From: Anaerohalosphaera lusitana
GTDB lineage: Bacteria > Planctomycetota > Phycisphaerae > Sedimentisphaerales > Anaerohalosphaeraceae
Assembly (NCBI RefSeq): GCF_002007645.1
Contig: NZ_CP019791.1
Coordinates: 3,154,593 to 3,218,592 of the forward strand
Direction: 5' to 3'
DNA length: 64,000 bases
The position numbers and the translations under genes are program-made. Each line of letters opens with the position of its first letter. Positions within the stretch are counted from its first letter, which is position 1. Below the pieces are notes generated by a model. It saw nothing but the letters and a program-made list of their open reading frames with translations, was not told the DNA's origin and did no database searches. This document shows positions 11,488-35,800 of this stretch, one piece after another.

Positions 11488-12138
11488 ATGAGCACTATAG
11501 AAAACAGAAATCTGATTTTACTGAGCCTTGGCACACTGCTTATGGTCACGGGCGGAAGCATTTACCGTCAAACACACACCGGCAAGCACCTGCCCGGTAC
11601 GACCAAGCCGAAGGACACGCTGAACGGCATGATACCCTGGGATATAGGCGACTGGCACGGCGAGGAAATTGATCTCATAGATTTTCAGGACCCGGACTTT
11701 TTTGCCGACACAGCTTTCTTGAGACGCTACAGGAACCCTGAGAAAAACCGTTACGCCGATCTCTATATCGCAGAGACAAAGATTCCCGCTGCAATGCTTG
11801 GACACCGGCCTGATGTTTGCTACGTTGCCGGAGGATGGGTTCTCGACGAAACAAAAAGTCTGAATGTCGAAACCACCACAGGGACCGCCATACCATGCAG
11901 CCTCAGCGTGTTCCATAACCCATCCGACCTGCAGCGCAAAGTTGTGCTGAACTTCTATATTTATGAGGGTGATATCTACAGAAACGAGACCGCCTTTAGA
12001 GGACTCAAATGGCGGTTAGACAGTAATAGAACGAAAAGCGACGCTTCGCTTGCACAGATACAGATCAGCTCGCAATACGAAAGCGTCGCATTGGAATACC
12101 TGCAACTAATGGGGGACGTGCTGATAGACATTCTCTGA
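11488..12138 (+). CDS. epsI: EpsI-family (DUF3485) exosortase-associated protein
   Basis: 216 residues with an N-terminal membrane anchor (about 9-26). The body has the features of the EpsI/DUF3485 family: a 'W' and 'Y' rich first half (PWDIGDWHG), then RYRNPEKNRYADLYIAET and the hallmark HRPDVCYVAGGW (His106, Cys111, Trp115). EpsI proteins occur only with exosortases, either alone or fused to their C-terminus, and help EPS/exosortase function in a way not well understood. Here epsI is the first gene of the cluster, about 14 kb before the exosortase gene at 25843. The ribosome-binding site is weak. Periplasm-facing anchored protein. Confidence 0.85.
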   Translation: MSTIENRNLILLSLGTLLMVTGGSIYRQTHTGKHLPGTTKPKDTLNGMIPWDIGDWHGEEIDLIDFQDPDFFADTAFLRRYRNPEKNRYADLYIAETKIPAAMLGHRPDVCYVAGGWVLDETKSLNVETTTGTAIPCSLSVFHNPSDLQRKVVLNFYIYEGDIYRNETAFRGLKWRLDSNRTKSDASLAQIQISSQYESVALEYLQLMGDVLIDIL

Positions 12139-19203: not shown

Positions 19204-20577
19204 TTGAGCATTAGTACCCTGAAAACAGATTCAAGGATCAAGGCCAAAGGCATTCAGTCGATGCTGATTAAAAGAACTCTGGGCCCGTTCAGAAAACGCA
19301 GAAAATGGCTCGCTCGGACACAATGGATGACTGCAGAGCAAATAAATGAACTGCAGACCAGCCTTATGATCAGCTTGATTGAAAATATTTTCCACAACAT
19401 CCCCTTCTACCGATCCATCATGGACAGCGCCGGCCTGACACCGTCAAACTTTCAAACACTGCAAGACATACAAAAAATGCCCATACTGAACAAGGACACG
19501 GTTCGTAACAACCTCGACGCGATGATCAACACTGCAGTCTCCCCTGCCATGCTACACAAAGCAAGCACAGGCGGAACCAGCAGCCACCCCTTACCCGTAT
19601 ACAGGGACTGGCGATCGATCGGCAACGAACACGCCTTCGTAAGAAGACAGTTCGATTGGGCGGGTCTGAAACTCAACGACAGATGTGCATACCTGACCTG
19701 GCGCAAAGTCTCCTCCGTCAACGATAAAAACAGCAAATATTTCGCCTACGACCCAGCCATGCACGAACTGATCCTCTCAACATATCATCTTTCACAGGAA
19801 ACCGCCGAGCAGTATTTACACGCCATCTGCCGCTTCAAGGTTAAGGCACTAGTCGGATATCCAAGCGCGATATACAGCCTCGCAAAGTTCCTCGGGCACA
19901 CCTGCCGCAAAGCACAACTGAAAGCCGTACTCACCAGTTCAGAAGTTCTCGACGATGACATAAAGGCCGCGATCGAGTCCCGATTCGGTTGCCCTGTGTT
20001 CGACTTCTACGGCAGCGCAGAAAGAACCTGCTACATCCACACCTGCGAAAAAGGAAGCTACCACATAATCCCTGAATACGGCATTACCGAGCTCATACCT
20101 TCCTCAAAACCATACGAAGCATTTTACAAGATAGTCGCAACCGGATTCTGGAACAACGCAATGCCCTTCATCAGATACGACACCCAGGATATGGTCTCCG
20201 TTTCGGACAACACTTGCACTTGCGGTAGAAATTACCCAGTCATAGACAAAATAATAGGCCGCGAATCCAACACGGTAACAACACGATCAGGAAGAAAGAT
20301 CGGCTCCACCGCCATGTACCGCCTGTGCAAGAACGCCTGCTCCCAGATAGCAAAACTCCCGGTCACAGACATCGGCGTCAGGTCAACTAAGGACGGCAGC
20401 TTGACACTCGAATACGTACCCGCAGACAGTTTCAGCCCTTCTGATCGCCGAAAGATCCATAACATCGTAGTAACGGAACTGCCGAATGAATTGTCACTGT
20501 CAACCAGAAGAGTCAGTCAACTCACCAAAACAAAGAACGGTAAATGCCTCAGTATCATCTATCCTGTACACAAATAG
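19204..20577 (+). CDS. CapK/PaaK-like adenylate-forming enzyme
   Basis: 457 residues. A TTG start at 19204 is supported by AAAGGAG 5 nt upstream. The sequence has the features of the phenylacetate-CoA-ligase-like CapK family: HKASTGGTSSHPLPVY (phosphate-binding loop), EVLDDDIKAAIESRFG, DFYGSAERTCYIHTC and RYDTQDMV. CapK-type proteins occur in capsule and EPS loci and are thought to activate or attach an acyl or amino-acid-like group. Substrate unknown. This suggests the polymer or its anchor may carry a non-sugar substituent. Confidence 0.85.
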   Translation: MSISTLKTDSRIKAKGIQSMLIKRTLGPFRKRRKWLARTQWMTAEQINELQTSLMISLIENIFHNIPFYRSIMDSAGLTPSNFQTLQDIQKMPILNKDTVRNNLDAMINTAVSPAMLHKASTGGTSSHPLPVYRDWRSIGNEHAFVRRQFDWAGLKLNDRCAYLTWRKVSSVNDKNSKYFAYDPAMHELILSTYHLSQETAEQYLHAICRFKVKALVGYPSAIYSLAKFLGHTCRKAQLKAVLTSSEVLDDDIKAAIESRFGCPVFDFYGSAERTCYIHTCEKGSYHIIPEYGITELIPSSKPYEAFYKIVATGFWNNAMPFIRYDTQDMVSVSDNTCTCGRNYPVIDKIIGRESNTVTTRSGRKIGSTAMYRLCKNACSQIAKLPVTDIGVRSTKDGSLTLEYVPADSFSPSDRRKIHNIVVTELPNELSLSTRRVSQLTKTKNGKCLSIIYPVHK

Positions 20578-20594: not shown

Positions 20595-21800
20595 TTGATC
20601 TCAGGTCATGACATCATATGCTTCGGCCCCACCGACTGGTGGTCCGGCAATCCCAGTTGCACAACCCATATAATGCGGCTTCTCGCACAACAGAACCGCA
20701 TATTATATATAAACCCGTTCAGCTCGGATCTGTCAGGAAGGATCAGAAAAGGCATTGCAGCGCGCATGCTAAGAAAAACGCGAAGCATCCTCAAGTGTTA
20801 TCGTCGTGAATCTGAGAGCCTTCACATTTACAGCCCCGTCTTCCTGCCCTTCCAGGGCAAGCACCATCTAGACAGCTTGAACAATACGATCCTCCGGCAT
20901 CAGTTATCCACGGTAGTAAAACTGCTCAAATTCAAACGACCCATCGTCTGGGTTGAAAACGTAAGATCAGCCGAAATGATCAGCTCAATGAAGCCGAAAC
21001 TTACCGTTTACCATGTCTCGGATCTGTTTGCGAAATGCAAGTACACCGCCAACAAGGTACAACTCGGCAAAAGAGAACAAGCTGTCACGCGGATGTCCGA
21101 TCTGCTCATATGCGTATCGCAAAGACTCTACGACCTGAAACGCAGCCAGCATTCAAATGTCCACTATATCCCTCATGGCGTCGATTACTCCCTTTTCAAA
21201 GAAGCCGCAGCATCAGGCTCCAAACACCCTGCTGCCACAAACGTCCCATCACCCATTATCGGCTACTACGGATCACTCACGCCCAACAATGACATCGAGA
21301 CATTGAAGCACTGTGCAGACAAACTTCCTTCATATTCATTCATACTTGCAGGCCAAATCACCGGCGGAGATTACGAGGACCTTCTCGCCAAACCAAACGT
21401 GCACTATATCGGCAAGCAGCCGTATGAGCAAATACCTTCCCTCTGTGCAAGCTTTGACGTATGCCTGCTGCCCTGGCGCGTTACCGACTGGATCAGGCAC
21501 TGCAACCCGCTCAAATTGGCCGAATACATGGCCTCAGGCAGACCCATAGTTTCAGTCAGAATAGATGAGGTAGCATCGCTTTACAATGAACTCATCAGTG
21601 TTGCTGATTCACCCCAAAGCTTCTGCGACGCTATAGTACACGAACTCACGAATGATACTGAAGCACGGTCAAAACAGCGTCAGCAACTGGCCCAGGATCG
21701 AAGCTGGACCGCCCAGGTTGACAAAATATCCGAACTGATTGCATCCAGACTCGAAGACGAAGCCGCTGACCGAGACACATTCCGAATGAGGAGCCAATGA
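20595..21800 (+). CDS. TuaH-like glycosyltransferase
   Basis: About 401 residues from the TTG at 20595, which has AAAGGAG 9 nt upstream; an ATG at 20544 would overlap the previous gene by 34 bp. The N-terminus (ICFGPTDWWSG ... THIMRLLAQQNRILYINPF) and the later stretches VYHVSDLF, YIPHGVDYSLF, GYYGSLTPNNDIETL and LPWRVTDWIRHCNPLKLAEYM resemble the TuaH-type GT-B glycosyltransferases often found with exosortase EPS loci. The stop overlaps the capA-like start (ATGA). Confidence 0.82.
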   Translation: MISGHDIICFGPTDWWSGNPSCTTHIMRLLAQQNRILYINPFSSDLSGRIRKGIAARMLRKTRSILKCYRRESESLHIYSPVFLPFQGKHHLDSLNNTILRHQLSTVVKLLKFKRPIVWVENVRSAEMISSMKPKLTVYHVSDLFAKCKYTANKVQLGKREQAVTRMSDLLICVSQRLYDLKRSQHSNVHYIPHGVDYSLFKEAAASGSKHPAATNVPSPIIGYYGSLTPNNDIETLKHCADKLPSYSFILAGQITGGDYEDLLAKPNVHYIGKQPYEQIPSLCASFDVCLLPWRVTDWIRHCNPLKLAEYMASGRPIVSVRIDEVASLYNELISVADSPQSFCDAIVHELTNDTEARSKQRQQLAQDRSWTAQVDKISELIASRLEDEAADRDTFRMRSQ

Positions 21801-22888
21801 AAAAGAAAACGAAAATAGCCTTCCTAGGCGACATCATGTGCGGCGACTCTTTCTACGCCATGGGCAAAGGAGTCCGCAGGAATCTCTGCAAAAGAGGCAT
21901 TGATTTCCTCCCCGAAAGCACCAGAGAAATACTCAGCCAACACAATGCTGTCTTCGCAAACGTCGAATGTGTCATTTCCGACATAGACCAACGCCCCCGA
22001 TCCTTGCGTAGCATGCAGTTGCGGGCAAGCCCTTACGCTGCCGTACTGTTGAGATCCTGGGGGGTTACTGTTGCCAACGTTGCAAACAATCACATCCTTG
22101 AACACGGCAGAAAGGCGGCATGCGATACTGTCAAAAATCTCGAAGCTGTCGGCATAAAAGTCGTAGGCGCAGGCGCAAGAAAAGACTTCTCCGGCGGACT
22201 CTCGGTCGCAAAGCTGAATTGCAATGATGAAACCATAGAGATCGCAGGCATTTCAATGCGGAATGAAAAGTACTCGTTCAATGACGTACACAGGTACGAA
22301 ATGATGCTTTTTGCTGAAAGATGCGCAAACGCTGTTCGACCCTGCATTTGCAGCATCCACTGGGGTGATGAATACATTGACAGACCCAGCCATGAACAGG
22401 CAATGTTTGCCCGTTCATTGATCACCTCAGGCGCAACTGCCGTAATAGGTCATCATCCGCATGTCGTACAGGGAATAGAGTACAGCCGGGGAAATCTCAT
22501 AGCATACAGTCTGGGCAACTTCATATTCAACGGAATATGGAAGGACACAAGATGGTCCGTCATCTTGAGCCTCACTTTTGAAGGAAACGTTATTGCCGAA
22601 GCACAGCTTTTCCCAATCGTCATGGACAATGAGTATCGCCCGCACATTGCAGCAGGTGATCAGGAGCGAACAATACTCAAAGAGGTGGTACGCAGAAACG
22701 GCATACTTCGTACAGTTGCGGACAACCCTCATTATCAAAGCGAATATGAAAACGACTTGCTCAAAAAAACAGCCGGATTTAAGAAACATCTGCGTTTACA
22801 CACAGTAAGCAGCATACCGACACAGCCGCCAATATTCTGGCCACAGATACTCGCTCGCCCGCTGAAAAGGCGAATAGGCACATGGTAA
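21797..22888 (+). CDS. CapA-family (PGA_cap) metallophosphatase-like protein
   Basis: 363 residues. Family signatures: FLGDIMCGD at the N-terminus, ANVECVISD, ANNHILEHG, SIHWGDEY, GHHPHVVQG and AYSLGNFIF, which in this calcineurin-like family provide metal ligands. CapA/PGA_cap proteins work in capsule synthesis (originally poly-gamma-glutamate) and are often outside the membrane, but no signal peptide is visible here, so this copy is probably cytoplasmic. It overlaps the previous gene by 4 bp. Exact reaction unknown. Confidence 0.87.
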   Translation: MKKKTKIAFLGDIMCGDSFYAMGKGVRRNLCKRGIDFLPESTREILSQHNAVFANVECVISDIDQRPRSLRSMQLRASPYAAVLLRSWGVTVANVANNHILEHGRKAACDTVKNLEAVGIKVVGAGARKDFSGGLSVAKLNCNDETIEIAGISMRNEKYSFNDVHRYEMMLFAERCANAVRPCICSIHWGDEYIDRPSHEQAMFARSLITSGATAVIGHHPHVVQGIEYSRGNLIAYSLGNFIFNGIWKDTRWSVILSLTFEGNVIAEAQLFPIVMDNEYRPHIAAGDQERTILKEVVRRNGILRTVADNPHYQSEYENDLLKKTAGFKKHLRLHTVSSIPTQPPIFWPQILARPLKRRIGTW

Positions 22889-22926: not shown

Positions 22927-23949
22927 ATGCTTAATGGAGGAGTAATTGGTTTCGGACGTATGGGCATTACACATTATGCCATTCTTAACACCCACCCAGC
23001 AGTAAATATCACCTGCGTTTGCGAATCATCAAACTTTGTCCGCAAACAGCTCAAACGCTATGCCGACGTCAATCTGTACGGCAGCTACAAAAAGATGCTG
23101 AGCAAAGAAGATTTGCATTTTGTGATCGTTGCAACACCAACGGCTTACCACGCTGACATAGTCAGTGATGCACTGGACAGCAACACAGCCGTATTCGTCG
23201 AAAAACCGCTGGCCCTGCGTCGGGACGAAAGCAGCTCTCTCACCGACAAGGCCGCAAGCAAAAATGCTGTTAATCAGGTTGGATATTTCCTTAGATTCAA
23301 TGAAGTATTCAAGACAGTAAAGGACATCGTGGACCACGGCTATATCGGCGACGTCATCCACTACAAAAACGAAATGTACGGCCGAACGGTCCTGAAAAGC
23401 TCTAAAAGCTGGAGAAGCAAGGGCGAACTTGGAGGCGGCTGCATTCTGGATTTTGCATCACACTGCATCGACCTGGCACAGTTCATGTTCGGCCCCGTCT
23501 CCAGGGTCGGCGGAAGCATGCTTAAAACGATCTATTCTGAAAAGGTAGAGGACGCAGTCTACACAATGCTCGAACACGAAAACGGCCTCTCCGGAAATGT
23601 AATGGTCACCTGGAGCGATGAAAGCTATCGCAAACCCTTCAACAGAATAGAAATACTTGGCAGCCAGGGCAAAATAATAGCGGACAGACAGGAATATCGG
23701 CTTTATCTCCGAAAGGACCCCGACCCAGAGAGCCCATATACAAAAGGCTGGAACATTCACTACCTGCCCGAGCTCGACCAGCCCGTTCGATACTCGCTTC
23801 GCGGCAGTGAGTTCACTCTCCAACTTGATCATTTCATACAAAGCGTAATAGAAAATGACACCCAGGGCGCTTGCACATTCGAAGACGGCGAAAGAGCGGA
23901 CCGGGTGATCGACATGATAAGGGAAGATTTCATTTCAAGGAGTGCATAA
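22927..23949 (+). CDS. Gfo/Idh/MocA-family oxidoreductase
   Basis: 340 residues. An N-terminal Rossmann fold (GVIGFGRMGITHY) binds NAD(P), the conserved EKPLA follows near residue 97, and the C-terminal alpha/beta domain carries GGGCILDFASHCIDLAQF. This is the usual layout for dehydrogenases acting on sugars, often nucleotide-sugar intermediates in polysaccharide loci. GGAGAG stands before the ATG. Substrate unknown. The next gene begins two bases after its stop. Confidence 0.9.
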   Translation: MLNGGVIGFGRMGITHYAILNTHPAVNITCVCESSNFVRKQLKRYADVNLYGSYKKMLSKEDLHFVIVATPTAYHADIVSDALDSNTAVFVEKPLALRRDESSSLTDKAASKNAVNQVGYFLRFNEVFKTVKDIVDHGYIGDVIHYKNEMYGRTVLKSSKSWRSKGELGGGCILDFASHCIDLAQFMFGPVSRVGGSMLKTIYSEKVEDAVYTMLEHENGLSGNVMVTWSDESYRKPFNRIEILGSQGKIIADRQEYRLYLRKDPDPESPYTKGWNIHYLPELDQPVRYSLRGSEFTLQLDHFIQSVIENDTQGACTFEDGERADRVIDMIREDFISRSA

Positions 23950-23951
23950 CC

Positions 23952-24869
23952 ATGGATAGAGTTATTTTGGGTGATAATCAGTTCTTCGGCGTAAGCCATC
24001 TTTCAGAAGAAAAAGGTATGGAACGCGCCCGCCGGTTCCAAAACATTGACGAAATAATCAAAGTGATTGACTACGCTTATTCCGCTGGGATAAGAGGCTT
24101 TTCATTCAGCACCCACGCTCAGGTCGAGATCATTTGCGATTACTTCAGAGATAACCAGCATAAGTACCCTGGCATCAGATTCTATCCCTGCGTACCATAT
24201 GCCCACAAGTATGCAAACATGGTAAATGAACAAGGGATACTTGGCGCTGTCTCTGAAGTTGTTCTCAGCGACAACAGCGCATCCAATGCATTTGGAATGA
24301 TGGCAAAGGCCGGCAATTTCGTCTTTACCCAACATCCCAGACGTATCATGGAGCTGCTGCTCGATGCAGAAATGAAAATGTTTCGAGACCTGAACGTAGA
24401 GGTTGTTTTCCTGCAGAACATAATCACTGATCTCCTGCTCGGACTCGGCTGGGCGGATGTCTTCTGCGATTTCATTGACTATATCGAGAACAATTACAAT
24501 GCGCGTGCAGGCTTTATGACGCTCAACATGCCCCGCCTGCTGCATCTTCTCAAGTCCAATGGGGTCGAAAGCCCTGTCATCTGCAGTGCCATCAACAAAA
24601 AAGGCTTCCAGATGAATCCCGGCCTCGAAGCATACGAGACCGCGCTGACTCATGAATCATTCGAGCCCGTCGCAATGTCCGTTCTTGCAGCAGGTGCTCT
24701 GAGACCAACCGAAGCCATAGATTACATTTCCGGCTTCAAAAGCATCAAGTCCGTCATATTCGGTGCTTCTACTCCGGCACATATAACAGCAACGAAAGAA
24801 CTTATCGAATCAGCATTTTCACAAGAACAGCGAACTCAACCCGTAGTTGCATACCAGAAGCAGGCTTAA
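23952..24869 (+). CDS. Uncharacterised TIM-barrel-like protein (aldo/keto-reductase-like ends)
   Basis: About 305 residues from the ATG at 23952 (AAGGAG upstream). I do not recognise a characterised family. The N-terminus VILGDNQFFGVSHLSEEKG and a conserved-looking GIRGFSFSTHAQVE, together with a C-terminal IFGASTPAHITATKELI, resemble the first and last strands of aldo/keto-reductase-type barrels, but I cannot find the AKR catalytic tetrad. The gene lies between a sugar oxidoreductase and the Alg14-like gene, so a role in sugar precursor metabolism is likely by context only. Confidence 0.75.
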   Translation: MDRVILGDNQFFGVSHLSEEKGMERARRFQNIDEIIKVIDYAYSAGIRGFSFSTHAQVEIICDYFRDNQHKYPGIRFYPCVPYAHKYANMVNEQGILGAVSEVVLSDNSASNAFGMMAKAGNFVFTQHPRRIMELLLDAEMKMFRDLNVEVVFLQNIITDLLLGLGWADVFCDFIDYIENNYNARAGFMTLNMPRLLHLLKSNGVESPVICSAINKKGFQMNPGLEAYETALTHESFEPVAMSVLAAGALRPTEAIDYISGFKSIKSVIFGASTPAHITATKELIESAFSQEQRTQPVVAYQKQA

Positions 24870-24870
24870 C

Positions 24871-25353
24871 ATGAAAAATATGAGATCAGGCAAGAAAAGA
24901 ACTATTTGCGTTGGATGCTCCGCTGGTGGACATATGAGCCAATTATTGATCCTGTTGAACTGCTGGGACTTTCAGCAGAAACCGGACCTCTATGTAACGA
25001 CCAGAAAGCAGACGGCCCAGCCGTTAGAAAGCCGGGGACCAACCTACTGCATCGGCGAATGCAACAGACGTAAGCCTGTCCGCAGCTTACTCGTACTGCT
25101 GAAAACCCTGTCACTCGCTCTTCGAAAAAGACCGGATGTGATTATTACCACCGGCTCGATGCCTCTGGCTCTGTTCTGCGGGTGGTCAAAACTGCTCGGA
25201 GCAAAGATCGTCTGGATCGACAGCATAACGAACATTGAAAAGCTCTCTGTTTCAGGACGATTCGTCAGACACTTCGCAGACCTGATGCTCGTCCAATGGC
25301 CTGAATTAACTAACAGATACACTAAAGCAGAGTATGTTGGAGCGATAGTATGA
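24871..25353 (+). CDS. Alg14/PssD-like glycosyltransferase membrane subunit
   Basis: 160 residues from the ATG at 24871. The GCSAGGHMSQL motif near the N-terminus and VIITTGSMPLALFC with a following hydrophobic stretch match the Alg14/PssD family, which recruits the catalytic Alg13-like subunit to the membrane. The stop overlaps the start of the next gene, which encodes that partner. The pair acts as one GT28-type glycosyltransferase. Confidence 0.85.
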   Translation: MKNMRSGKKRTICVGCSAGGHMSQLLILLNCWDFQQKPDLYVTTRKQTAQPLESRGPTYCIGECNRRKPVRSLLVLLKTLSLALRKRPDVIITTGSMPLALFCGWSKLLGAKIVWIDSITNIEKLSVSGRFVRHFADLMLVQWPELTNRYTKAEYVGAIV

Positions 25354-25838
25354 TATTTCTGACAGTGGGCGCACAATTCGGCTTTGACAGGCTCGTAAAA
25401 GCTGTCGACATGTGTGTCGAAAAAGGCGTCATAAAGGACGATCTCTTTGCCCAGGTGGGAAACGGAAGATATATACCCCGAAACTTTCCGTTCAAACCGC
25501 TGTTGAATTCAAAACAGTATGGCGAACAGTTCGCAAATGCCTCAGCCGTCATAGGCCATGCAGGAATGGGTACCATAATCACAGCCTTGAAAATGAACAA
25601 ACCCCTCCTTGCAATGCCGAGGCTGAAGGAATTTGGCGAAGTCGTCAATGACCATCAGATAGCAATATGCCGTCGATTTGCCGCAGAGGGTCTGCTCCTG
25701 CCCGCCTACAGCGAAACGGAACTGCCCGAGCGGGTCGTCAATCTTGCAGAATTTGTCCCGCTCAAAAGAGAACCACAGCCGGAAAAAGTATTTGACCGAA
25801 TACGCGAATTCTTGAAAGAGCTGGATCGAGGTCTTTGA
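25350..25838 (+). CDS. Alg13/PssE-like glycosyltransferase catalytic subunit
   Basis: 162 residues resembling the C-terminal domain of GT28 enzymes (MurG-like): IFLTVGAQFGFDRLVKAVD, then AVIGHAGMGTIITALKMNKP with the donor-binding 'GHxGxGT' and the loop around residues 95-115. It overlaps the Alg14-like gene by 4 bp, so the two are probably made in equal amounts and form a complex. It probably adds a sugar to the growing lipid-linked unit. Confidence 0.87.
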   Translation: MIFLTVGAQFGFDRLVKAVDMCVEKGVIKDDLFAQVGNGRYIPRNFPFKPLLNSKQYGEQFANASAVIGHAGMGTIITALKMNKPLLAMPRLKEFGEVVNDHQIAICRRFAAEGLLLPAYSETELPERVVNLAEFVPLKREPQPEKVFDRIREFLKELDRGL

Positions 25839-25842
25839 TCCC

Positions 25843-27741
25843 ATGACATATGACAATTTACAGGTAATTCTTCTAACCGAATGCTGTCATTTTCACAGCT
25901 CAGCCCTGGAAAAGGTACGTAATCGTTGCCTTTGGCCCGTACTCGGCCGACCAGCCCTGGAGAGAACACTCATACAGTTAAAGGATAGAGGCCTGGTCAA
26001 TGTCAGCATCTCCTTGGGAACAGGCGAATTATCAGAGGATGAAGTAAATGTACCAAAGGATATGAATGCCGCATTTTTAAAAGAATCGCTACCCGTAGGA
26101 TCGGCTGGCATCATTCGACAAGCGGCCGAAGCGACCCCTGAAGCCCAAAAATTCGTTATATTCAGCTCAAGTATTTGCAAACTCCCCGATATTGACAGCA
26201 TTCTCGAGACACACCTTAAAAAGAAGGCTGATCTGACAATCGCAATGGACGCCGTTCATGAGCAGGACCACATGGTCACCGGCAAAACCGAAGCATTTAT
26301 CTGCAACAGAAGCGTATGTCCCTATATAGATTCAGATTCCTACATCGACATAAAGGAACATTTGATCCCCTCATTGATCAAACAGGGAGGCACGGTAGCT
26401 TACAGTAGATTGGCCTTTTCTTTGCTCCACTTCACGGATTGGCGGAGCTATCTCCATGCGGTCCGACAGTTGCTCTTGGATGAAGACACCCTGCCTTCAA
26501 TAGTTCGCAATGATCGTTTCACACGGCATTCAGAGAACATTCTCATTGGCACCGATGCCCGGATAGCGAAGAACGTTCGCATATTCGGCCCCTGTCTCAT
26601 AGGACCTGATGCAAGAATCGAAAAAGACTCGACCATCATAGGCCCTTCGGTGATCGGTAAAAACACAATCGTCGAAAGCAACTGCCTGCTCAAAGATGTG
26701 ATTGTATGGGACGATGTAACAATAGATAAGAATTGCGAACTCAGCAACTGCGTAATCAGTCAGAACACACGGTTAAAAAAGAACTCATCAAGGCAGAATA
26801 GTGTAATAGCGGCGAAAGACAGAAATTTCTTGCCGAATCATTCACTAAAATTACCCGCCGCTATTCGCTCACAAAGTCAAAAGTGCATTAACAGAGGCCT
26901 TCTCACTAAAGTCTTTGCCATAACAGCAGTTTTTCTATTCACATGGTCATACTGGCCTCAGATTTCAAATCTGCTTGATATCTGGCAAAACAGCAGACTT
27001 CATGCTGCAGGTGCCCTCGTCCCGCCGCTGGCACTCTATGCTGCCTGGACAAAGAGAGAAGAACTTTCTAAGCTCAAATTAAGGCCCAGCCTCTGGGGAA
27101 TTCTGGCATTGAGCCTCGCAGAAATCACACGTCATTTCGGAACATATTTCATGTATGGATCACTGAACAGGCTCTCCATCCTGATCGCGATCACCGGACT
27201 GCTTCTGTTGTTCTTTGGAATCTCTTCCATACGCAGGACAGCCCCGCTGCTGCTCTTTCTGCTGCTCATGTTTCCCCTGCCCACCTCTTTAAGAAATTCG
27301 ATCTCAGTACCCCTGCAGGAACTGGCCATCAGTTCGGTCATGTTCGGTATGGAAATAATGGGCATAACTGTCTCACGTGACGGTGCCTACCTGGATTTTG
27401 ACTCTGCACGGATCCTCGTAAGTGAAGGATGCAACGGCTTGCGAATGATCATGGCATTCGCAATTCTAACTTGCTTTATAGCATTGATCATCGAAAGCCC
27501 GACGTGGATCAAGTCCTCACTAATACTCTCCTGCATACCTCTCAGCTTGTTGTGTAACTCTATCCGACTCGGCGCAACCGCCCGACTGAGTATGCAGATC
27601 GGCTCTAACGAAATTCAGCAAACAATACACGACATTGGAGGACTCGCCATGGTCCCCCTGGCCATGGGTTTCGTTTTGCTCGAATTACGTTTCTTTTCAA
27701 GCTTTACCAGAAATGGATCTCTCATCCTTAAACGAAAATAA
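25843..27741 (+). CDS. Exosortase fused to degenerate nucleotidyltransferase / hexapeptide module
   Basis: 632 residues in one uninterrupted frame. Residues 1-225 resemble a sugar nucleotidyltransferase (LWPVLGRPALERTLIQL), but the GxGTR-type nucleotide loop is replaced by LLTECCHFHSS, so catalysis is doubtful. Residues about 233-315 are left-handed beta-helix hexapeptides (GPCLIGPDARIEKD, SVIGKNTIVES). From about 353 there are about eight membrane spans with the exosortase signature: Cys530 in SEGCNGLR, Arg575 in CNSIRLG and His596 in HDIGG, the expected Cys-Arg-His set. Exosortases cleave and re-anchor proteins with PEP-CTERM tails at the membrane. The fusion is unusual. The candidate substrate is encoded at 36368 and EpsI at 11488. 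Confidence 0.9.
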   Translation: MTYDNLQVILLTECCHFHSSALEKVRNRCLWPVLGRPALERTLIQLKDRGLVNVSISLGTGELSEDEVNVPKDMNAAFLKESLPVGSAGIIRQAAEATPEAQKFVIFSSSICKLPDIDSILETHLKKKADLTIAMDAVHEQDHMVTGKTEAFICNRSVCPYIDSDSYIDIKEHLIPSLIKQGGTVAYSRLAFSLLHFTDWRSYLHAVRQLLLDEDTLPSIVRNDRFTRHSENILIGTDARIAKNVRIFGPCLIGPDARIEKDSTIIGPSVIGKNTIVESNCLLKDVIVWDDVTIDKNCELSNCVISQNTRLKKNSSRQNSVIAAKDRNFLPNHSLKLPAAIRSQSQKCINRGLLTKVFAITAVFLFTWSYWPQISNLLDIWQNSRLHAAGALVPPLALYAAWTKREELSKLKLRPSLWGILALSLAEITRHFGTYFMYGSLNRLSILIAITGLLLLFFGISSIRRTAPLLLFLLLMFPLPTSLRNSISVPLQELAISSVMFGMEIMGITVSRDGAYLDFDSARILVSEGCNGLRMIMAFAILTCFIALIIESPTWIKSSLILSCIPLSLLCNSIRLGATARLSMQIGSNEIQQTIHDIGGLAMVPLAMGFVLLELRFFSSFTRNGSLILKRK

Positions 27742-27753
27742 AGGAGCACGATT

Positions 27754-29973
27754 ATGAATCAGATCGATAAGTACTATGAATCATATCTAGGCTCGTACGC
27801 CCAGGAAGGCACAAAGCAAGAATCTGAAAACACCTTGACATTGTTCAAGATAATCAAGGCACTGCTGCGACGGTGGTACATCGTTCTGCTGACCGTGGTC
27901 GTCCTTTGTGCGATAGGCATCCCCGCCATCTTCTACATGTTCAAACCGTCTTACGAAACAGTCGGCGCCATCAGAGTTTCACCGATACTCCCCAATGTAC
28001 TCTTCGACGACGCCGAAACCCAGGACGTAATGCCCAACTACCAGGGCTTTATGAACACCCAGGCCGAGCTCATGTCCAGCAACGAGATCCTCAATCGCGT
28101 CGCCGAAGACATGGCCAAAAGAGGCATACGCATATGCGAACCCGATATGGACCCCGTAGCGATCCTGAAGCTCATGATCAACAAAGAAACCATCCTCATC
28201 GAGCCCGGCGAAAAAACAGAACTGATCAACATCAAAATGAAAACCAACAACACCGCATTCTCTGAAGAACTTGTCGACTCGTTCATACGCGTCTATATGA
28301 CTATGCAGGCCTATGAAGAAAATCAGGGCGAAGACAACAAACTCGCCTTGCTTGAGAACAAAAGAGCTTCAACAGCAAAACAAATGCAGCAGCAGCGAAA
28401 GATCATTCGCCAGCTCGCCGAAGAATTCGGCACAACAAGTCTCACCGGCCGACAGGAAATGATGCTTGAGCAGGTAATGAAGCTCCAGAATGAACTTACG
28501 ACCCTCGAAACCAAAAGGATTGCCCTTGAGGCCAACGTACAGATGAAAGTCAACGGTGACAAGGTCCTGCTCGCCCCCACCGACCGCATGAAGCTAAAAT
28601 ACGAATTCATAAATGCTGACTTGACCATAAAGGCCCTCACCGAAGACATGGCCAAACTGGAAAGAGATGTACTGGGCGATCAGCAAACAATGGTCTCAGG
28701 CAATCCAAGGCTCGAACAAAGAAAAGAAATACTCACAGCCTTAAAAACACGACTGGACCAGAGACGCGAGGACATAGGCAAAAAATTTGAGGAGCTCATA
28801 GAGGAACAGATAAACCGCAGCTCGGAGTTTCAGGTGGCCGAACTCAAAGCCGAACTTGCCAAAGTCCGCGAAAACGAACGGCGCATAAGAGAAAAACTAG
28901 AAGGTACCAACGCAGAATTAATCACATTAGGCAAAAGACACCTCGCGATAAAGGACCACCAGGAACAGCTCGAGCTAACCAAAGAACTTTACGACGCTAT
29001 CAATCGCAAGATCCAGAAGATCGAAATGGAAAGCCAAAGACCCGCCCGCGTCTCCGTCGCCTACTATGCATCCAGCGTCATCGCCAAAGATAAAAGACAA
29101 AAGCTGGCGATCGTTGCGGTCCTTGGTTCAATTTGCTGCGGCGGCTTTCTTGGAGTAATGATCGATCGATCAGACAAACGCATGCGTACACCCACCGACC
29201 TAAACAAATCACTAAGCACCCGCATCATCGGCACAACCGTATGCCCAACCGAGGTCAAAAGATCAGAGCTCTCGGAAAGACTCGCCGACGACTACCGCAC
29301 TATACGAGCCAACATCAGCATGCTCGAAGAAGAGAATCAACACATATTAGCAGTAACAAGCAGTCAGCCCAAGGACGGCAAGACTACCTTCTCGATCAAT
29401 TTCGCTGCAAGCCTGGCACAGAACGACCGAAAGGTCCTGCTCATTGACGGCGACCTGAGAAAACCAGACATTGCACGCATCCTGAATCTCCCTGAAGGCA
29501 CTACAGGACTTTCCGACGTCCTTGAAGGCAAACCATTTGCCAACGCTCTCTGGTACGCACCATCAGCAGGATTCGATGTCCTCGGCAATTACGACCGTTG
29601 TCTCAAGGCCTGCGACAGGCTGTCCAGACCCGAGGTCCAAAGCAACATACGAAATCTTTGCAGATACTACGATCATGTTGTAATAGACACCCCTCCTGTA
29701 CTCGCCTTCCCCGACGCCCTGCTTTGGGCTCGCATCGCCGACGCGACAATACTCGCCAGCTTCGCAGGCAAAACAGCAGCAGACGACCTCAAGGAAGCTT
29801 ACGGCAGGCTTCATGAACTCAACATCACTGTGCTGGGGACGGTCCTCAACGGTGTCCACACCGCTCACTCATACAATAAATACGGCTACAGATATTACAA
29901 GGCATCCTCATCACCCGCCGACAAAAACGGCCCTACACGAAACAGACCTCTTCTGCTCACATCAGGGAACTGA
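27754..29973 (+). CDS. Wzz/BY-kinase polysaccharide co-polymerase (tyrosine autokinase)
   Basis: 739 residues. A chain-length-determinant (Wzz) domain is held by membrane spans at about 42-65 and 450-470, with a long coiled-coil periplasmic part between them. The C-terminal cytoplasmic BY-kinase domain has Walker A SSQPKDGKTT (536-545), Walker A' LLIDGDLR (562-569) and Walker B VVIDTPP (642-648), followed by a tyrosine cluster (Tyr707, 710, 712, 714, 715) that would be autophosphorylated. Such proteins set polymer length with Wzy and Wza. AAGGAG precedes the ATG. It is encoded between the two enzymes that carry the hexapeptide module. Confidence 0.93.
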   Translation: MNQIDKYYESYLGSYAQEGTKQESENTLTLFKIIKALLRRWYIVLLTVVVLCAIGIPAIFYMFKPSYETVGAIRVSPILPNVLFDDAETQDVMPNYQGFMNTQAELMSSNEILNRVAEDMAKRGIRICEPDMDPVAILKLMINKETILIEPGEKTELINIKMKTNNTAFSEELVDSFIRVYMTMQAYEENQGEDNKLALLENKRASTAKQMQQQRKIIRQLAEEFGTTSLTGRQEMMLEQVMKLQNELTTLETKRIALEANVQMKVNGDKVLLAPTDRMKLKYEFINADLTIKALTEDMAKLERDVLGDQQTMVSGNPRLEQRKEILTALKTRLDQRREDIGKKFEELIEEQINRSSEFQVAELKAELAKVRENERRIREKLEGTNAELITLGKRHLAIKDHQEQLELTKELYDAINRKIQKIEMESQRPARVSVAYYASSVIAKDKRQKLAIVAVLGSICCGGFLGVMIDRSDKRMRTPTDLNKSLSTRIIGTTVCPTEVKRSELSERLADDYRTIRANISMLEEENQHILAVTSSQPKDGKTTFSINFAASLAQNDRKVLLIDGDLRKPDIARILNLPEGTTGLSDVLEGKPFANALWYAPSAGFDVLGNYDRCLKACDRLSRPEVQSNIRNLCRYYDHVVIDTPPVLAFPDALLWARIADATILASFAGKTAADDLKEAYGRLHELNITVLGTVLNGVHTAHSYNKYGYRYYKASSSPADKNGPTRNRPLLLTSGN

Positions 29974-31644
29974 TTGCTTATGCTAAGAAAAATCACACAA
30001 TGCACAATCCTTGAAGATCTAACCGCGGAGTCTAACCCCCCCATCGGCAACTGGCTTGCAGCGCATCAATGGCGACTGAATGCACTAATTCAGATAGTCA
30101 GGCAGAATGCCGCCTGCAAATGCAGTCACATCTTTTATCCAGCGTCATGGCGTATTTCCAGCGATGATCGAAACCTCACGCCATATGACTGCACACTACT
30201 ACTGAAAACACTCAAAAATGAAATCTCAGATCACAAAAACATCCTCCTGAATCACGCTAAGAACGTCACAAGGATCGACCCTGCAATACTGCGATCTCTG
30301 ATCGAACGCTATTCGGATATTGACGTGCTGGCCGTCAATGTCAGAAAGGACCTCACCCGCATCACCGAAAGAGCGATACTGAATGAACATGGCAATGTCT
30401 GCGGCTTCAAGAGGTTCTACAATCATGGAGCTTTACGTGAAATGCAATGCACCGATTGGCCTGATTACCTCTTGATCAACAGCAACATCCTCACTGACCT
30501 GCCCGATGACATCGATCTCATCACTGATTTCACACGGTTTTGGAAATTCATCATTGAGCACAATCACTCTCGGGTCACAGTTGGCGTTCCAGGTCAGATC
30601 GTTCCGTTACAGAATAGCGTCGAAACAGTTTTAGATATGGCTCACAGCATCATCTCGAGCAAAACAAGAACCGATCATACACCGATTGACGGTATGAAAA
30701 AAGTTCAGGATCCGTCCATCCGAATAATCGGCAACGTTCTGGCAGGCCCAAATCTCTCCTTGGGGAAAAACTGTGTACTTCTCGGCCCTTCGATTATCGG
30801 CAAGAACGTGCATATACAAGACGGATCTCTCATTGATTCCAGTGTCATCGATGACAACACCTGCGTCGAATCCGGCTCAAGGATCAGAAATACGTTCTTA
30901 ACCCACTCCGAAACCAAGTGCTCAGCCGAAAATACATCAGACTTACAGCTCAGCGAACCCATCCAAATTTCAGGTGCTCTGGGCTATCCAAATTACCCAA
31001 AACGCTGTCTGGATGCACTCGCATCGCTGGGCCTTATTCTCGTCTCGGCACCTGTCATGCTCGCTATAGCAGCCGCGATAAAGCTCGAATCGCCCGGCCC
31101 AGCAATATTCAAACATCGCAGACAGGGTCTCTCCGGCAGAGAATTTCAATGCCTGAAATTCAGAACAATGGTAACAGGCGCAGACCAAATGCAGCAGATA
31201 CTGAGATCATTGAACGAAGTTGACGGCCCTCAATTCAAAATAGAAAACGATCCGCGAGTCAGCAGGCTTGGGAGGTTTCTCAGAGCAACATACCTGGACG
31301 AACTGCCGCAATTATTTAACGTTCTGGCCGGTCATATGAGTCTCGTAGGCCCAAGACCCTCACCTGCGCGGGAGAACCTGTTTTGCCCGCACTGGCACGA
31401 TGCAAGGCTGTCCGTCAAACCCGGCATAACGGGTTTATGGCAGGTAAAACGTAATCCTGAGCGAACTCACGATTTCCAGGAATGGCTCAAATATGATGTT
31501 GAATATGTCAATTCGATCAGCTTCAAGCTGGATCTCTGGATATTCCTGCAAACAATAAAAAAACTCACATCGAAACTGGCAGAACCGCTTGCCGTTCGGA
31601 TTTTCAATTGGAAACGCCTGAATCATGTCCCGGAAAAAACGTAA
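29974..31644 (+). CDS. Priming glycosyl-1-phosphate transferase with N-terminal hexapeptide module
   Basis: About 556 residues; start either TTG 29974 (AGGGA 5 nt upstream) or ATG 29980. Residues 1-240 are unrecognised but occupy the place of a nucleotidyltransferase domain. About 248-318 are left-handed beta-helix hexapeptides (GPSIIGKNVHIQDGS). From 343 the sequence is a complete bacterial sugar transferase (PF02397, WcaJ/PglC-like): KRCLDALASLGL, a membrane hairpin, IKLESPGPAIFKHRRQG, LKFRTM, the DELPQLFNVL region and VGPRP. It would load the first sugar phosphate onto undecaprenyl phosphate. The five or so predicted N-terminal helices of WcaJ are missing and replaced by this soluble module. 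Confidence 0.87.
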   Translation: MLMLRKITQCTILEDLTAESNPPIGNWLAAHQWRLNALIQIVRQNAACKCSHIFYPASWRISSDDRNLTPYDCTLLLKTLKNEISDHKNILLNHAKNVTRIDPAILRSLIERYSDIDVLAVNVRKDLTRITERAILNEHGNVCGFKRFYNHGALREMQCTDWPDYLLINSNILTDLPDDIDLITDFTRFWKFIIEHNHSRVTVGVPGQIVPLQNSVETVLDMAHSIISSKTRTDHTPIDGMKKVQDPSIRIIGNVLAGPNLSLGKNCVLLGPSIIGKNVHIQDGSLIDSSVIDDNTCVESGSRIRNTFLTHSETKCSAENTSDLQLSEPIQISGALGYPNYPKRCLDALASLGLILVSAPVMLAIAAAIKLESPGPAIFKHRRQGLSGREFQCLKFRTMVTGADQMQQILRSLNEVDGPQFKIENDPRVSRLGRFLRATYLDELPQLFNVLAGHMSLVGPRPSPARENLFCPHWHDARLSVKPGITGLWQVKRNPERTHDFQEWLKYDVEYVNSISFKLDLWIFLQTIKKLTSKLAEPLAVRIFNWKRLNHVPEKT

Positions 31645-34600
31645 TATCATAACCGCCCTTTCGGCATTCATTCTTCTGGTCGTCGTCATTTTTGCATTGA
31701 ACGTGATCCATGACTGGCAGCAGAAACGTTTGTCCGAAAAAACCTACAGCCAGGGACTGAACGCCTACCAGCAGAACAACTGGGCCCAAGCAGCAAAACA
31801 CTTCCGTACCTATCTTTCCAAAAACGGCACCGACAACGAAATTCTGGCAAAATTCGCCCAGGCCCAGCTTAATCGCAGGCCACTAAAAAAACAGTACTTC
31901 GACAGTGCAATACGCTCCTACCGGCGGATTCTTTTGAACGACCCACAAAACCTGACCGCCGCGATGGCTCTCATTGACAGACTTATCGAGAACGATCTGC
32001 CGGCCGAAGCTGAACTCGTCGTAAACAGATTGACCGGACTCGCAAAACATCCTCAGATAAGACTCAGGCTCGCTCTTGCCAAACAAAAACAGGGTGACTT
32101 CAATTCAGCAGTCAAAATAACGAAACAATTGATCCAGTCTGACCCCAGAATACTCAAAGCGTACGAGCTCCTCATTCAAACAGCTTCTCAAAAACCGGAG
32201 ATCATGAATGAAGCCGGAATGTATTGGTGCGAGAAATGTCAGGAAGAAAATCCGCAAAACCCAATGAGCCATATTCTAATGGCCGAACAGCAGATAATGC
32301 AAGGCAATGATGAACAGGCATTGAACGATCTAAACAACGCAGCAGCATTACCAAATATGAGTCATGATGTACATCTTCGCCTTGCTGACAACTATAAAAA
32401 TCTGAACAAGACAGACCTTTCCCTCCAGCATCTCGAACATGCCCGCAAGATCGAAGCTAACAGTTTCAAACTATGGAAAGCCTACGCCGAACATGCGATT
32501 ACATCAAGCGACACCTCCAAAATGACATACGTTGCGCAGCAGGCCCTGAAAGACCTTGATCCCGATGATTGGGACTTTACACCCATAGCCGCAGAATTGC
32601 TCATTCACTCCGATGAGCTGAATCAAGCAGAACAAATGATTCAGCAATACCGGGAAAACGGAGGTTTACGAACTACAGCATGTTTCCTCGAAGGCTTGAT
32701 CTTTGTCCGAAGAAATGAAAATTCCAGGGCCATAGATTCATGGGAAAGGGCTCTTCAACTCGGCGACCCCACACTGAGAACAAGACTTGAACTTGCCGCC
32801 CTGTTCTTGCAGCAGGGATTGCCTTACCGGGCCCAGAGGGTACTTACAGACTGTGATAACTATGAGAACCGAATAGAGGTCCTGCTTTTAAGGGCCCAAA
32901 CAGCCAGACTTTTGAAAAAAGCCCCCGAAGCGATCGAATACTATCAGAAAGCTTTGCAGCTTTATCCCGAAAATGCGGATATCATGAGCCGCTATTTTGA
33001 CTATGCGCTGACAGTTTTCGAAGATCCAGATATTCCTATCAGCAAAGGAGAACTCGGTTCTGTTCTGGAACGGCTCTTGAACACGGATATCCCCAAGCCA
33101 AAGAAGCGTCTCCTTTCAATGAGATTCTATCTCGCAGCCGATCAACTGAACAACTGTGAAAAAGAACTGAATCAGCTCAAACAAGAAGGATCGCTGACTT
33201 CAGAACATCTGCTGATTCAAGCGGATCTCGAATACAAAAAATCTGATCTACGCAAGGCACTTGACATTCTCGAAACGATCCAGCCGGACGACCCATACTA
33301 CATCCAGGCCTCACTCAAGGGTGCCCGGATCTGTACAAAAAGCGGAAATCCGGAACTGTCAGAAAGCTTCCTGCAACGTAAACTTGAACATGCCGCATCG
33401 AAAGAGGCAAGAAATATACTCCTGGTAAGCTTGCTCGACATTACCAATGACCGTACCGACGACGCCGACTTCAGCAAGCTTAAAACGCTGCATGAGCGAT
33501 TCGGCCCATCGATAGCTTTAAATCGAAGATTACTTCATTGCGATCAAACATATGATGAACCCCTGCTAGTTGAAAGCCTGATCGATGAACTGAGAAACAT
33601 CGAAGGCGAAAACGGCTGGCGATGGAGATATGAAACAGTAAGGCACTGGCTGAACTTGCCGGACTTCACATCGCGTTACACTGAAGCAGTGCAACTGACT
33701 GAAGAAATACAACGGATGTATCCCGAACTGCAAACATCACATATACTTATGGCCAGAACCCATGAAACAGCAAGAAGAACCAACCTGGCCCTTAAGTCAT
33801 ACCGCCAGGCATTGCAGCAGAACCCATCAGATATCGACTTAGCACTCGAACTCATAAAGGTCCTCAAACGAGCTGACAAGCATAAAGAGGCAGAAACTCT
33901 GAGCCGAACATACATCGATCGGTTCCCCTACAACCCCCTGCTGGCCTCATTGTCTGCAGACTACTACATAAGCCACGAACAACTTCAAAAAGCCGAAATG
34001 GTGCTCTCTAAAGTAATTGAAAAAGAACCTGACAACATCACCATACTGCTGCGGCTAATAGAAACTCAGATCAGCATGAAGGATTTCGACTCCGCGGAAA
34101 GAACCCTCAGCGACCTCCTTAAACAACTCCCAGCAGCACAAAGCATAGAATCGTGTACCGCAGCCGTCAATTTTAGCCTTGCAAAAGGCGACACAAGAAC
34201 GGCTGTCAAATACTGTAACGACCTTCTCAAGAACCGTGAATCCTCAAGGCCATATCTGCTTCGAGCCAGAATATATTCATTGACTGGAAAAACTACATTG
34301 GCAATGGATGATCTTCTTCGAGCGGTTCAGGTCGAGCCGACTGATTCAGGGGCCTGGCTGGAACTCGCAGTATTTTATCATTCGATCGGTGACATAAAAC
34401 AAAGCATTGAAGCGATCGGAAAATGTCTTCAGATCGACCCATACGATCCGACGATCCGAAAACATGCTAGCCGCATCATGCTCGAAAGCAATGACACAGC
34501 CGTCCGAAAACGCGGACTGGAAATACTCAAAAAGGAACGCTCAAAAAACAAAGAAGACACATCGCTGGCCCTTCTCGAAGCACAGAGCCTATATAGGATG

Positions 34601-35800
34601 AGGAACAGAACCGACCGACTCAAAGCAGAAGAGATCTTGCGTCTGCTCATCAAGAAAAATCCCCTGGACAGTAACTTATGGCTCACCTGGGTCCATGAAC
34701 TTAAACGGTTAAACGAGACAGAAAAAGCAAGCCAGGTTCTTGAACAGGGACTTATCTATTTACCGAATAACCCTCTGCTTCTTTCACAGATCGAAAATTT
34801 GGGGCGCGAGGATATGGATCACGACTCAGTAAAAAGGCTTCAAGAAGTGGTTCGCAGCAGACCCTCGGATTCTCAGGCCGCGATAGCCCTGGCCAGAAAA
34901 CTGATAGATTCACAAAAACCTGACGAAGCTTCAGAGCTGCTCGAAAAACAGCTCGCGGTTTGTCAACCACAGGCCAGACCGCGTCTCGAAACTCTCCATG
35001 CGGTTGCTCAGTATCATGGCGGACACATAGATAAATCTGAAAAAGAATTCAACGAACTCCTGAAAAAGTATCCTGGCAACCCCCTAATACTTGCCGAGCG
35101 GTTCAGGGTCCTCTTTCAGCAAGGCCGGCAAGCGGAAATCGAAGAACTAGCAAAGGCAGAGATTCAGAAGGACCCCAGACAAAAGCCTCTTTTCATAGCG
35201 GTCATCAGGCAGATGGCAAATTATGAAGACACCAAGTCCGTCACCCTCGCAACCTCAATTGCAGAAGCGGTCCACACTGTTTTTGAAAACGATGCAACGA
35301 TCATGAGCATCCTGGGCGCTCTGTATCGCAAACGACAGAAGGATCAGGATTCCATAAGGATGTACACAAAGATAGTCTCGCAATACCCGGAACACGTTGA
35401 GGCCATCAATAACCTGGCATGGCTGCGATCGGAAGTGGACCGCAAATACAACGAGGCCTTCGACCTCACCCAGCAAGGCCTTGACACAGCGGACTCATAT
35501 CCCAACCTCATCGATACACGAGGCGTAATCAATTATCGCATGGAGAACTACAAAGCCGCTCGTTCGGATTTCATTAGAGCCTTGGAAACAGCCGAAGTAG
35601 GCGGCCCGTTATATGTCAACAGCACTTTCCATCTGGGCCGCACCCTCGCAGCAATGAACGAAAACAAACAGGCACTCCAAAAACTAAAAGAGGCCCTTGA
35701 GTTCAATGAATACGCAAAAGTCTTATCGAATCAGAATATAGAGGAAGCTAACCGCCTTATTAACCTTTTGATCGGAACGGTGGAACAAAATGAGCACTAA
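31625..35800 (+). CDS. Giant TPR protein of the exosortase/EPS cluster
   Basis: 1391 residues with one N-terminal membrane anchor (about residues 8-28, IITALSAFILLVVVIFALNV) and then TPR repeats nearly to the C-terminus. Large TPR proteins (PrsT-like) are regular members of exosortase/PEP-CTERM EPS loci and probably scaffold the periplasmic assembly or export machinery. The start overlaps the previous gene by 20 bp and the end overlaps the LuxR gene by 11 bp, so expression is coupled. The repeats are divergent, suggesting age rather than recent expansion. Confidence 0.85.
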   Translation: MSRKKRNIITALSAFILLVVVIFALNVIHDWQQKRLSEKTYSQGLNAYQQNNWAQAAKHFRTYLSKNGTDNEILAKFAQAQLNRRPLKKQYFDSAIRSYRRILLNDPQNLTAAMALIDRLIENDLPAEAELVVNRLTGLAKHPQIRLRLALAKQKQGDFNSAVKITKQLIQSDPRILKAYELLIQTASQKPEIMNEAGMYWCEKCQEENPQNPMSHILMAEQQIMQGNDEQALNDLNNAAALPNMSHDVHLRLADNYKNLNKTDLSLQHLEHARKIEANSFKLWKAYAEHAITSSDTSKMTYVAQQALKDLDPDDWDFTPIAAELLIHSDELNQAEQMIQQYRENGGLRTTACFLEGLIFVRRNENSRAIDSWERALQLGDPTLRTRLELAALFLQQGLPYRAQRVLTDCDNYENRIEVLLLRAQTARLLKKAPEAIEYYQKALQLYPENADIMSRYFDYALTVFEDPDIPISKGELGSVLERLLNTDIPKPKKRLLSMRFYLAADQLNNCEKELNQLKQEGSLTSEHLLIQADLEYKKSDLRKALDILETIQPDDPYYIQASLKGARICTKSGNPELSESFLQRKLEHAASKEARNILLVSLLDITNDRTDDADFSKLKTLHERFGPSIALNRRLLHCDQTYDEPLLVESLIDELRNIEGENGWRWRYETVRHWLNLPDFTSRYTEAVQLTEEIQRMYPELQTSHILMARTHETARRTNLALKSYRQALQQNPSDIDLALELIKVLKRADKHKEAETLSRTYIDRFPYNPLLASLSADYYISHEQLQKAEMVLSKVIEKEPDNITILLRLIETQISMKDFDSAERTLSDLLKQLPAAQSIESCTAAVNFSLAKGDTRTAVKYCNDLLKNRESSRPYLLRARIYSLTGKTTLAMDDLLRAVQVEPTDSGAWLELAVFYHSIGDIKQSIEAIGKCLQIDPYDPTIRKHASRIMLESNDTAVRKRGLEILKKERSKNKEDTSLALLEAQSLYRMRNRTDRLKAEEILRLLIKKNPLDSNLWLTWVHELKRLNETEKASQVLEQGLIYLPNNPLLLSQIENLGREDMDHDSVKRLQEVVRSRPSDSQAAIALARKLIDSQKPDEASELLEKQLAVCQPQARPRLETLHAVAQYHGGHIDKSEKEFNELLKKYPGNPLILAERFRVLFQQGRQAEIEELAKAEIQKDPRQKPLFIAVIRQMANYEDTKSVTLATSIAEAVHTVFENDATIMSILGALYRKRQKDQDSIRMYTKIVSQYPEHVEAINNLAWLRSEVDRKYNEAFDLTQQGLDTADSYPNLIDTRGVINYRMENYKAARSDFIRALETAEVGGPLYVNSTFHLGRTLAAMNENKQALQKLKEALEFNEYAKVLSNQNIEEANRLINLLIGTVEQNEH

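Follow-up and report, generated by a model that had tools for sequence, protein, structure and literature searches.

A degenerate nucleotidyltransferase and β-helix module fused to an exosortase in Anaerohalosphaera lusitana, with a homologous module on a neighbouring phosphoglycosyl transferase

One gene of Anaerohalosphaera lusitana joins a degenerate nucleotidyltransferase domain and a left-handed β-helix to an exosortase, the presumed anchoring enzyme for cell-surface proteins, in a single frame, and a module of the same predicted fold stands at the N-terminus of the initiating phosphoglycosyl transferase encoded in this locus. The presence of this sister module on the enzyme that starts the polysaccharide suggests, from sequence, that the exosortase and polysaccharide machines are physically coupled. 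Exosortases have been seen in polysaccharide loci since 2006, and both the reason for this association and the partner to which the cleaved proteins are joined form a standing question in the field. Together, the fusion and the sister module would tie protein sorting directly to polysaccharide synthesis through a physical connection open to experiment; their arrangement points to a lipid-linked glycan as a possible acceptor. Coordinates without a locus or contig prefix refer to the window, the whole stretch of 64,000 nucleotides of DNA that was analysed.

Architecture of the fused frame

The fusion, here named NT-EXO, is encoded on the forward strand by a frame of 632 residues that runs from an ATG at 25843 to a stop at 27741 (25843..27741) with no internal stops, as the first-pass annotation had read it, and its parts were assigned with Pfam, NCBIfam and a structure model. 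Residues 1-225 (25843..26517, +) form a degenerate, GT-A-like nucleotidyltransferase domain recognised by alignment and fold search, and residues 226-322 (26518..26808, +) a left-handed β-helix evident from Pfam and the structure model. These are followed by a disordered basic linker in the model (residues 323-350; 26809..26892, +), lying 5' of the first membrane helix, and by the exosortase membrane domain (residues 351-621; 26893..27705, +; Pfam and structure model). The Pfam family Exosortase_EpsH (PF09721) matches residues 365-616 (E 1.3e-46) with a score of 159.5 bits against a curated cut-off of 25.7, while LbH_EIF2B and Hexapep match residues 232-324 (E 4.8e-16) and 251-283 (E 2.4e-9), respectively. 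Nothing in Pfam reaches its cut-off on the N-terminal ~220 residues alone. The NCBIfam mannose-1-phosphate guanylyltransferase model covers residues 29-324 (E 2.1e-20) and bridges the first two parts.

The exosortase portion displays the expected catalytic residues Cys530 (codon at 27430..27432, +), Arg575 (27565..27567, +) and His596 (27628..27630, +), each invariant in an alignment of 48 fusions. The earlier claim of a complete exosortase bearing these three residues is thereby upheld at the level of sequence, with a sorting activity that is putative. Only general exosortase models of NCBIfam pass their cut-offs on NT-EXO, and the named exosortase types in that collection each fall below their own. 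The structure model has a mean pLDDT of 84, with predicted membrane helices spanning residues 351-621, mostly at pLDDT > 75 and with the approximately eight helices of an exosortase, and a linker at residues 327-350 with pLDDT < 50. In the fold search with this model the list was filled by matches to the N-terminal module, such that the exosortase part was barely tested. Basic residues that flank a membrane helix mark the cytoplasmic side under the positive-inside rule; the basic stretch that leads into the first membrane helix thus fits a nucleotidyltransferase/β-helix (NT) module that probably resides in the cytoplasm.

A degenerate module and its sister

The model of residues 1-330 aligns in structure comparison to eIF2B-epsilon, GMPPB, VTC1 and ADP-glucose pyrophosphorylases. 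The top matches, to eIF2B-epsilon and GMPPB, extend over 312-327 residues with Z 28-30 and an rmsd of ~3 Å, the best being eIF2B-epsilon (Z 30, 327 residues, rmsd 2.8), and a profile search against solved structures found the same protein families. Together with the Pfam and NCBIfam matches, these values bear out the first reading of the protein as a nucleotidyltransferase-like domain, a β-helix and an exosortase. Among enzyme families, mannose-1-phosphate guanylyltransferase comes nearest to the module by profile.

Across 79 aligned NT modules, stand-alone ones included, the residues at the VTC1 positions Gly11, Thr12, Arg13, Lys23 and Asp111 are lost and replaced mostly by Asp, Phe, Gly, Thr/Arg/Ala and Ser/Ala/Asn, respectively, with Gly also found in place of the metal-binding Asp111. 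The phosphate loop G-x-G-T-R is absent, and the catalytic Lys and Arg are each found in 3 of the 79 modules. The equivalent region of the window's module reads ECCHFHSS; the loss of the nucleotide loop, first noticed in this copy, therefore holds for the family as well. The guanine contacts of VTC1 are residue 80 and Gly85 (PMC9168903), the former given as Asp80 in the text of that paper and as Glu in the chain sequence. At the first of these positions a Glu or Asp is present in 74 of the 79 modules, a Glu there being shared with eIF2B-epsilon, a pseudoenzyme with no known guanine sensing in that pocket, and Gly85 is kept in all 79. The window's copy likewise keeps the base-reading loop, as Glu81 and G86-S-A-G89. 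In VTC1 the sugar is held by a segment whose counterpart in the NT modules, between the residue 132 strand and the residue 152 strand, is ~20 residues shorter (spacing mostly 21-22), so that a whole GDP-sugar may not fit. The loss of the catalytic residues and the retention of the guanine contacts together characterise the module, as far as its residues tell, as a pseudoenzyme throughout the family, and one to which a guanine base may still bind.

The motifs Y/F-x-D-I-K-E-x-L-I-P and G-T/S-A-G are conserved in NT modules throughout the order. The copy in the window ranks among the more eroded modules: its order-conserved DFGRCP motif is replaced by CHFHSS, and it is fast-evolving, with an end branch of 2.23 in the NT tree.

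Two genes downstream of NT-EXO, an initiating phosphoglycosyl transferase (29974..31644, +), here NT-PGT, bears a second pseudo-nucleotidyltransferase/LbH module at its N-terminus (~1-323), as indicated by Pfam, NCBIfam, a structure model and profile-profile comparison. Its catalytic end has Bac_transf (PF02397) at residues 343-531 (E 3.8e-61) and a structural match to WbaP (Z 19.7, 161 residues, rmsd 2.6), and PglC also matches. The N-terminal 323 residues align to GMPPB and VTC1 with Z ~17 over 273-280 residues at an rmsd of ~5, and a comparison of profiles built from 32 exosortase-type and 26 transferase modules (PGT-N) gave a probability of 99.7% and E 2.6e-27. By these models and profiles the two modules are homologous and of the same predicted fold. 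On our reading of the alignment, the PGT-N modules have lost the base loop and keep a strand pair, E-K-V ... G-F-R-R, which falls in the region missing from the NT-EXO module. This paralogous module, outside 25843-27741 and missed by the first-pass annotation, constitutes the strongest evidence for coupling. In the NT-PGT proteins of Phycisphaerae, the pseudo-nucleotidyltransferase/β-helix N-terminus takes the place of the four-helix bundle and the domain of unknown function that are usual in such transferases.

Locus and distribution of the fusion

NT-EXO belongs to a cassette found throughout the order Sedimentisphaerales, with the gene order [PssD-PssE] - NT-EXO - Wzz/BY-kinase - NT-PGT - TPR. 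In the window, the PssD/Alg14-like (24847..25353, +) and PssE-like (25350..25838, +) glycosyltransferase subunits, both recognised by Pfam and NCBIfam, precede the fusion, and a fused Wzz chain-length determinant and BY-kinase domain (27754..29973, +) lies between NT-EXO and NT-PGT. A TPR protein of 1391 residues like PrsT of PEP-CTERM/exosortase systems (31625..35800, +) follows, the latter two having been identified by Pfam, NCBIfam and locus comparison. The exosortase-associated EpsI (DUF3485; Pfam) is a separate gene at 11488..12138 (+). The polysaccharide locus also encodes a PGA_cap capsule-synthesis-like protein (21797-22888), present at this locus in several relatives too, and frames that lack any Pfam match at 15922-16845, 19204-20577 and 23871-24869, the second of which has homologues in many related loci. 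Divergent from the locus, and adjoining a TPR protein, is the gene for a protein of 1907 residues with Laminin_G_3, PKD and Ig-like domains (5126-10849, -).

The genome of A. lusitana, a single contig of 4.25 Mb, encodes two exosortases, NT-EXO and a separate protein of 329 residues (C1:3473449) that belongs to another subfamily in the exosortase tree. Substrates for exosortases exist, since 49 PEP-CTERM proteins exceed the TIGR02595 cut-off in this genome, and the two sorting systems may divide these targets between them.

Throughout Sedimentisphaerales the fusion is the standard form of this exosortase; unfused and secondarily split forms also occur. From the DNA of relatives, 62 distinct frames bearing both NT and exosortase were read, five of them outside the order; the named records that carry fusions are Sedimentisphaerales, Phycisphaerae and Planctomycetota MAGs. 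By hand count, the NT profile finds frames of ~560-740 residues in about 74 of the 161 genomes of the order. Within the same family (39 genomes), many have an exosortase of ~335 residues together with another whose open frame spans 640-690 residues, and 15 long exosortase frames were aligned end to end. A stop or frameshift between the two parts was sought, and the fusion was instead found to read through in dozens of relatives, with a few natural splits. One of these splits, at L142:9512-10879, has an NT gene (455 residues with an insert) that adjoins a separate exosortase, and another, at L216:3521-4483, consists of three genes in the order NT, EpsI and exosortase. Fused frames across family and order rule out a one-off fusion. 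An assembly artefact or chance read-through has a negligible probability and is ruled out for practical purposes by the single-contig genome, by the 62 distinct fused frames from independent genomes and by two fusions found outside the class (L293, L297). Two records, L209 (CAMDDF010000073.1, 'Candidatus Kuenenia stuttgartiensis') and L207 (MVQL01000127.1, 'Pelotomaculum'), carry the Sedimentisphaerales cassette, and their titles look wrong.

The loci L104-L108 hold a second group of NT-EXO fusions, which belongs to a different order of the class. In the exosortase tree the fusions of Sedimentisphaerales form one clade (100/100) and those of f19 another (98/90) that includes one long-branched single exosortase, and the AU test does not reject a single origin, with the fusions constrained to one group (p 0.42). 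The other orders of Phycisphaerae have NT as a gene of its own, 335-470 residues long, at the same place in the locus, and at L111 and L222 the exosortase and EpsI are separate genes of the same cluster. All 26 genomes with a stand-alone NT that were tested for any exosortase have one. Within the order, the loci L130, L131, L132 and L141 have an NT gene with no attached exosortase. In the NT tree the unfused NT genes of the order nest within the clade of fused modules, and the unfused exosortases at L142, L143 and L216 likewise fall within the fused exosortase clade; the exosortase part has thus been split off or lost several times and NT retained. Since these members of the order retain NT with no exosortase attached, the module appears to be maintained because of some partner that is not the exosortase domain, and the distribution points to a function independent of it.

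NT-PGT lies downstream in 55 of 58 loci (44 with a fused and 11 with a stand-alone NT), these being the named-record loci with an NT frame and at least 4.5 kb of downstream sequence. Among 396 genomes of the class, both modules are present in 101, NT only in 23 and the PGT module only in six, the last being drafts from the order (e.g. G014 and G018) in which contig ends are a likely cause. Operon conservation alone could explain this co-occurrence.

Proposed docking, its rivals and known systems

In the explanation that we favour, with evenly balanced confidence, a sugar-nucleotide pyrophosphorylase of the GMPPB type gave rise to the NT module, which is non-catalytic and docks the exosortase onto the polysaccharide-initiation enzyme by β-helix pairing, possibly gated by a guanine nucleotide. 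In known relatives the subunits touch mainly or solely through the β-helix, which is the main contact in GMPPA-GMPPB (PMC9168903), GMPPA is an inactive, GDP-mannose-binding regulatory partner of GMPPB (PMC11228364), and the large phosphoglycosyl transferases WbaP and EpsZ dimerise or are regulated through their N-terminal region (PMC10942596, PMC12802240). By analogy, the NT modules of the exosortase and the phosphoglycosyl transferase would pair in the cytoplasm through their β-helices and so keep the exosortase close to the point at which the lipid-linked polysaccharide is begun. A guanine nucleotide in the remaining base pocket may signal how much sugar nucleotide is available, in the manner of GDP-mannose with GMPPA, and PEP-CTERM processing would in this manner be tied to polysaccharide synthesis in place and perhaps in time. 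The evolutionary distances of NT and PGT-N have a residual correlation of 0.44 after the PGT-C and BY-kinase background is removed, the highest among the pairs tested; this value is modest and suggestive of coupling, with the NT-EXO pair, which shares a chain, close at 0.37 and NT-Wzz at 0.33. In the L104-L108 fusion loci the N-terminus of the PGT (e.g. that encoded by the gene at L104:13468-15042) is a reduced homologous domain, W-x-V-N-G ... Y-P-E-S ... E-R-H-Y-x-D-S, in which no β-helix was detectable, so that pairing by β-helices is not universal and fails for that group. In Haloferax, the archaeosortase ArtA shares its site with the acceptor-making enzymes PssA/PssD (PMC7157517), and a lipid-linked glycan is by this analogy a reasonable guess for the acceptor of the cleaved proteins.

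In a comparison with the GMPPA type, the homologous module on the phosphoglycosyl transferase was found to co-occur with NT and to be itself degenerate. NT-EXO keeps the base loop and NT-PGT the strand pair around the sugar, and the two may therefore sense one ligand jointly; that two dead paralogous modules form an obligate hetero-complex of this kind, a membrane machine for sorting and priming, is a rather doubtful extension of docking. It is somewhat unlikely that the module acts as a lone, GMPPA-like sensor, which on binding a guanine nucleotide or a GDP-sugar would gate in cis the exosortase on its own chain, with no pairing to the phosphoglycosyl transferase. The retained base-reading loop, the lost catalytic residues, the nearest enzyme family by profile and the precedent of GMPPA all agree with such a sensor, but NT stands with no attached exosortase in many Phycisphaerae and outlives the exosortase part in members of the order, and its shortened 132-152 segment may be too small for a whole GDP-sugar.

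The improbable notion that NT serves only to dimerise or stabilise the exosortase, unlinked to polysaccharide synthesis, draws on the common occurrence of β-helix dimers in this fold (PMC9168903) and on the loss of even the family motif from the window's copy. It fits poorly, however, with specific motifs conserved order-wide, a fixed operon position and the homologous sister module that the phosphoglycosyl transferase carries. An active sugar-nucleotide enzyme, either a nucleotidyltransferase or a hexapeptide acyltransferase and a source of precursor at the membrane, would have the fold of active pyrophosphorylases in its favour, but the phosphate loop, Lys and metal-binding Asp are gone in nearly all 79 modules, and the motif table largely refutes this highly improbable alternative. 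The first-pass interpretation of the module, as a sensor of a sugar nucleotide or a dock to the glycan machinery, is thus partly supported; we judge the idea right and the function putative.

In the open-licence literature, no paper was found on a fusion of a nucleotidyltransferase with either an exosortase or a phosphoglycosyl transferase. A common, known exosortase extension was also looked for, and none of the Pfam and NCBIfam models searched describes or names either this extension or the NT family, whose pseudo-pyrophosphorylases occur class-wide in Planctomycetota. The exosortase fusions described in 2006 by Haft involve a C-terminal EpsI part or CAAX-protease-like domains (PMC1569441), whereas the extension of NT-EXO is N-terminal and comprises 330 residues of pseudo-nucleotidyltransferase and β-helix. 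In other respects NT-EXO resembles EpsH/XrtA (PF09721, TIGR02602; PMC1569441) in its membrane domain, its Cys/Arg/His residues and its polysaccharide locus, and the systems are alike in the PEP-CTERM proteins of the genome and the EpsI and PrsT-like neighbours. ArtA of Haloferax is of the same superfamily, but is co-localised with lipid enzymes and has no fused docking module. The inactive nucleotidyltransferase and β-helix of eIF2B epsilon/gamma, which serve complex assembly and share the Pfam family LbH_EIF2B with NT, are likewise similar, although eIF2B is a eukaryotic exchange factor that is functionally unrelated to NT-EXO. Human GMPPA/GMPPB and plant VTC1/KJC share with NT the fold, the β-helix and an inactive module with base-reading residues, and the pairing with a paralogue is a likeness to GMPPA/GMPPB by analogy only. 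These proteins are soluble, whereas NT is fused to a membrane exosortase, and, in contrast to GMPPA/GMPPB, the candidate partner of NT is also inactive, and part of the sugar-binding segment of NT is missing. The large monotopic phosphoglycosyl transferases WbaP, WcaJ and EpsZ resemble NT-PGT in the catalytic C-terminal domain and differ from it at the N-terminus, where they bear a four-helix bundle and a domain of unknown function in place of the pseudo-nucleotidyltransferase and β-helix.
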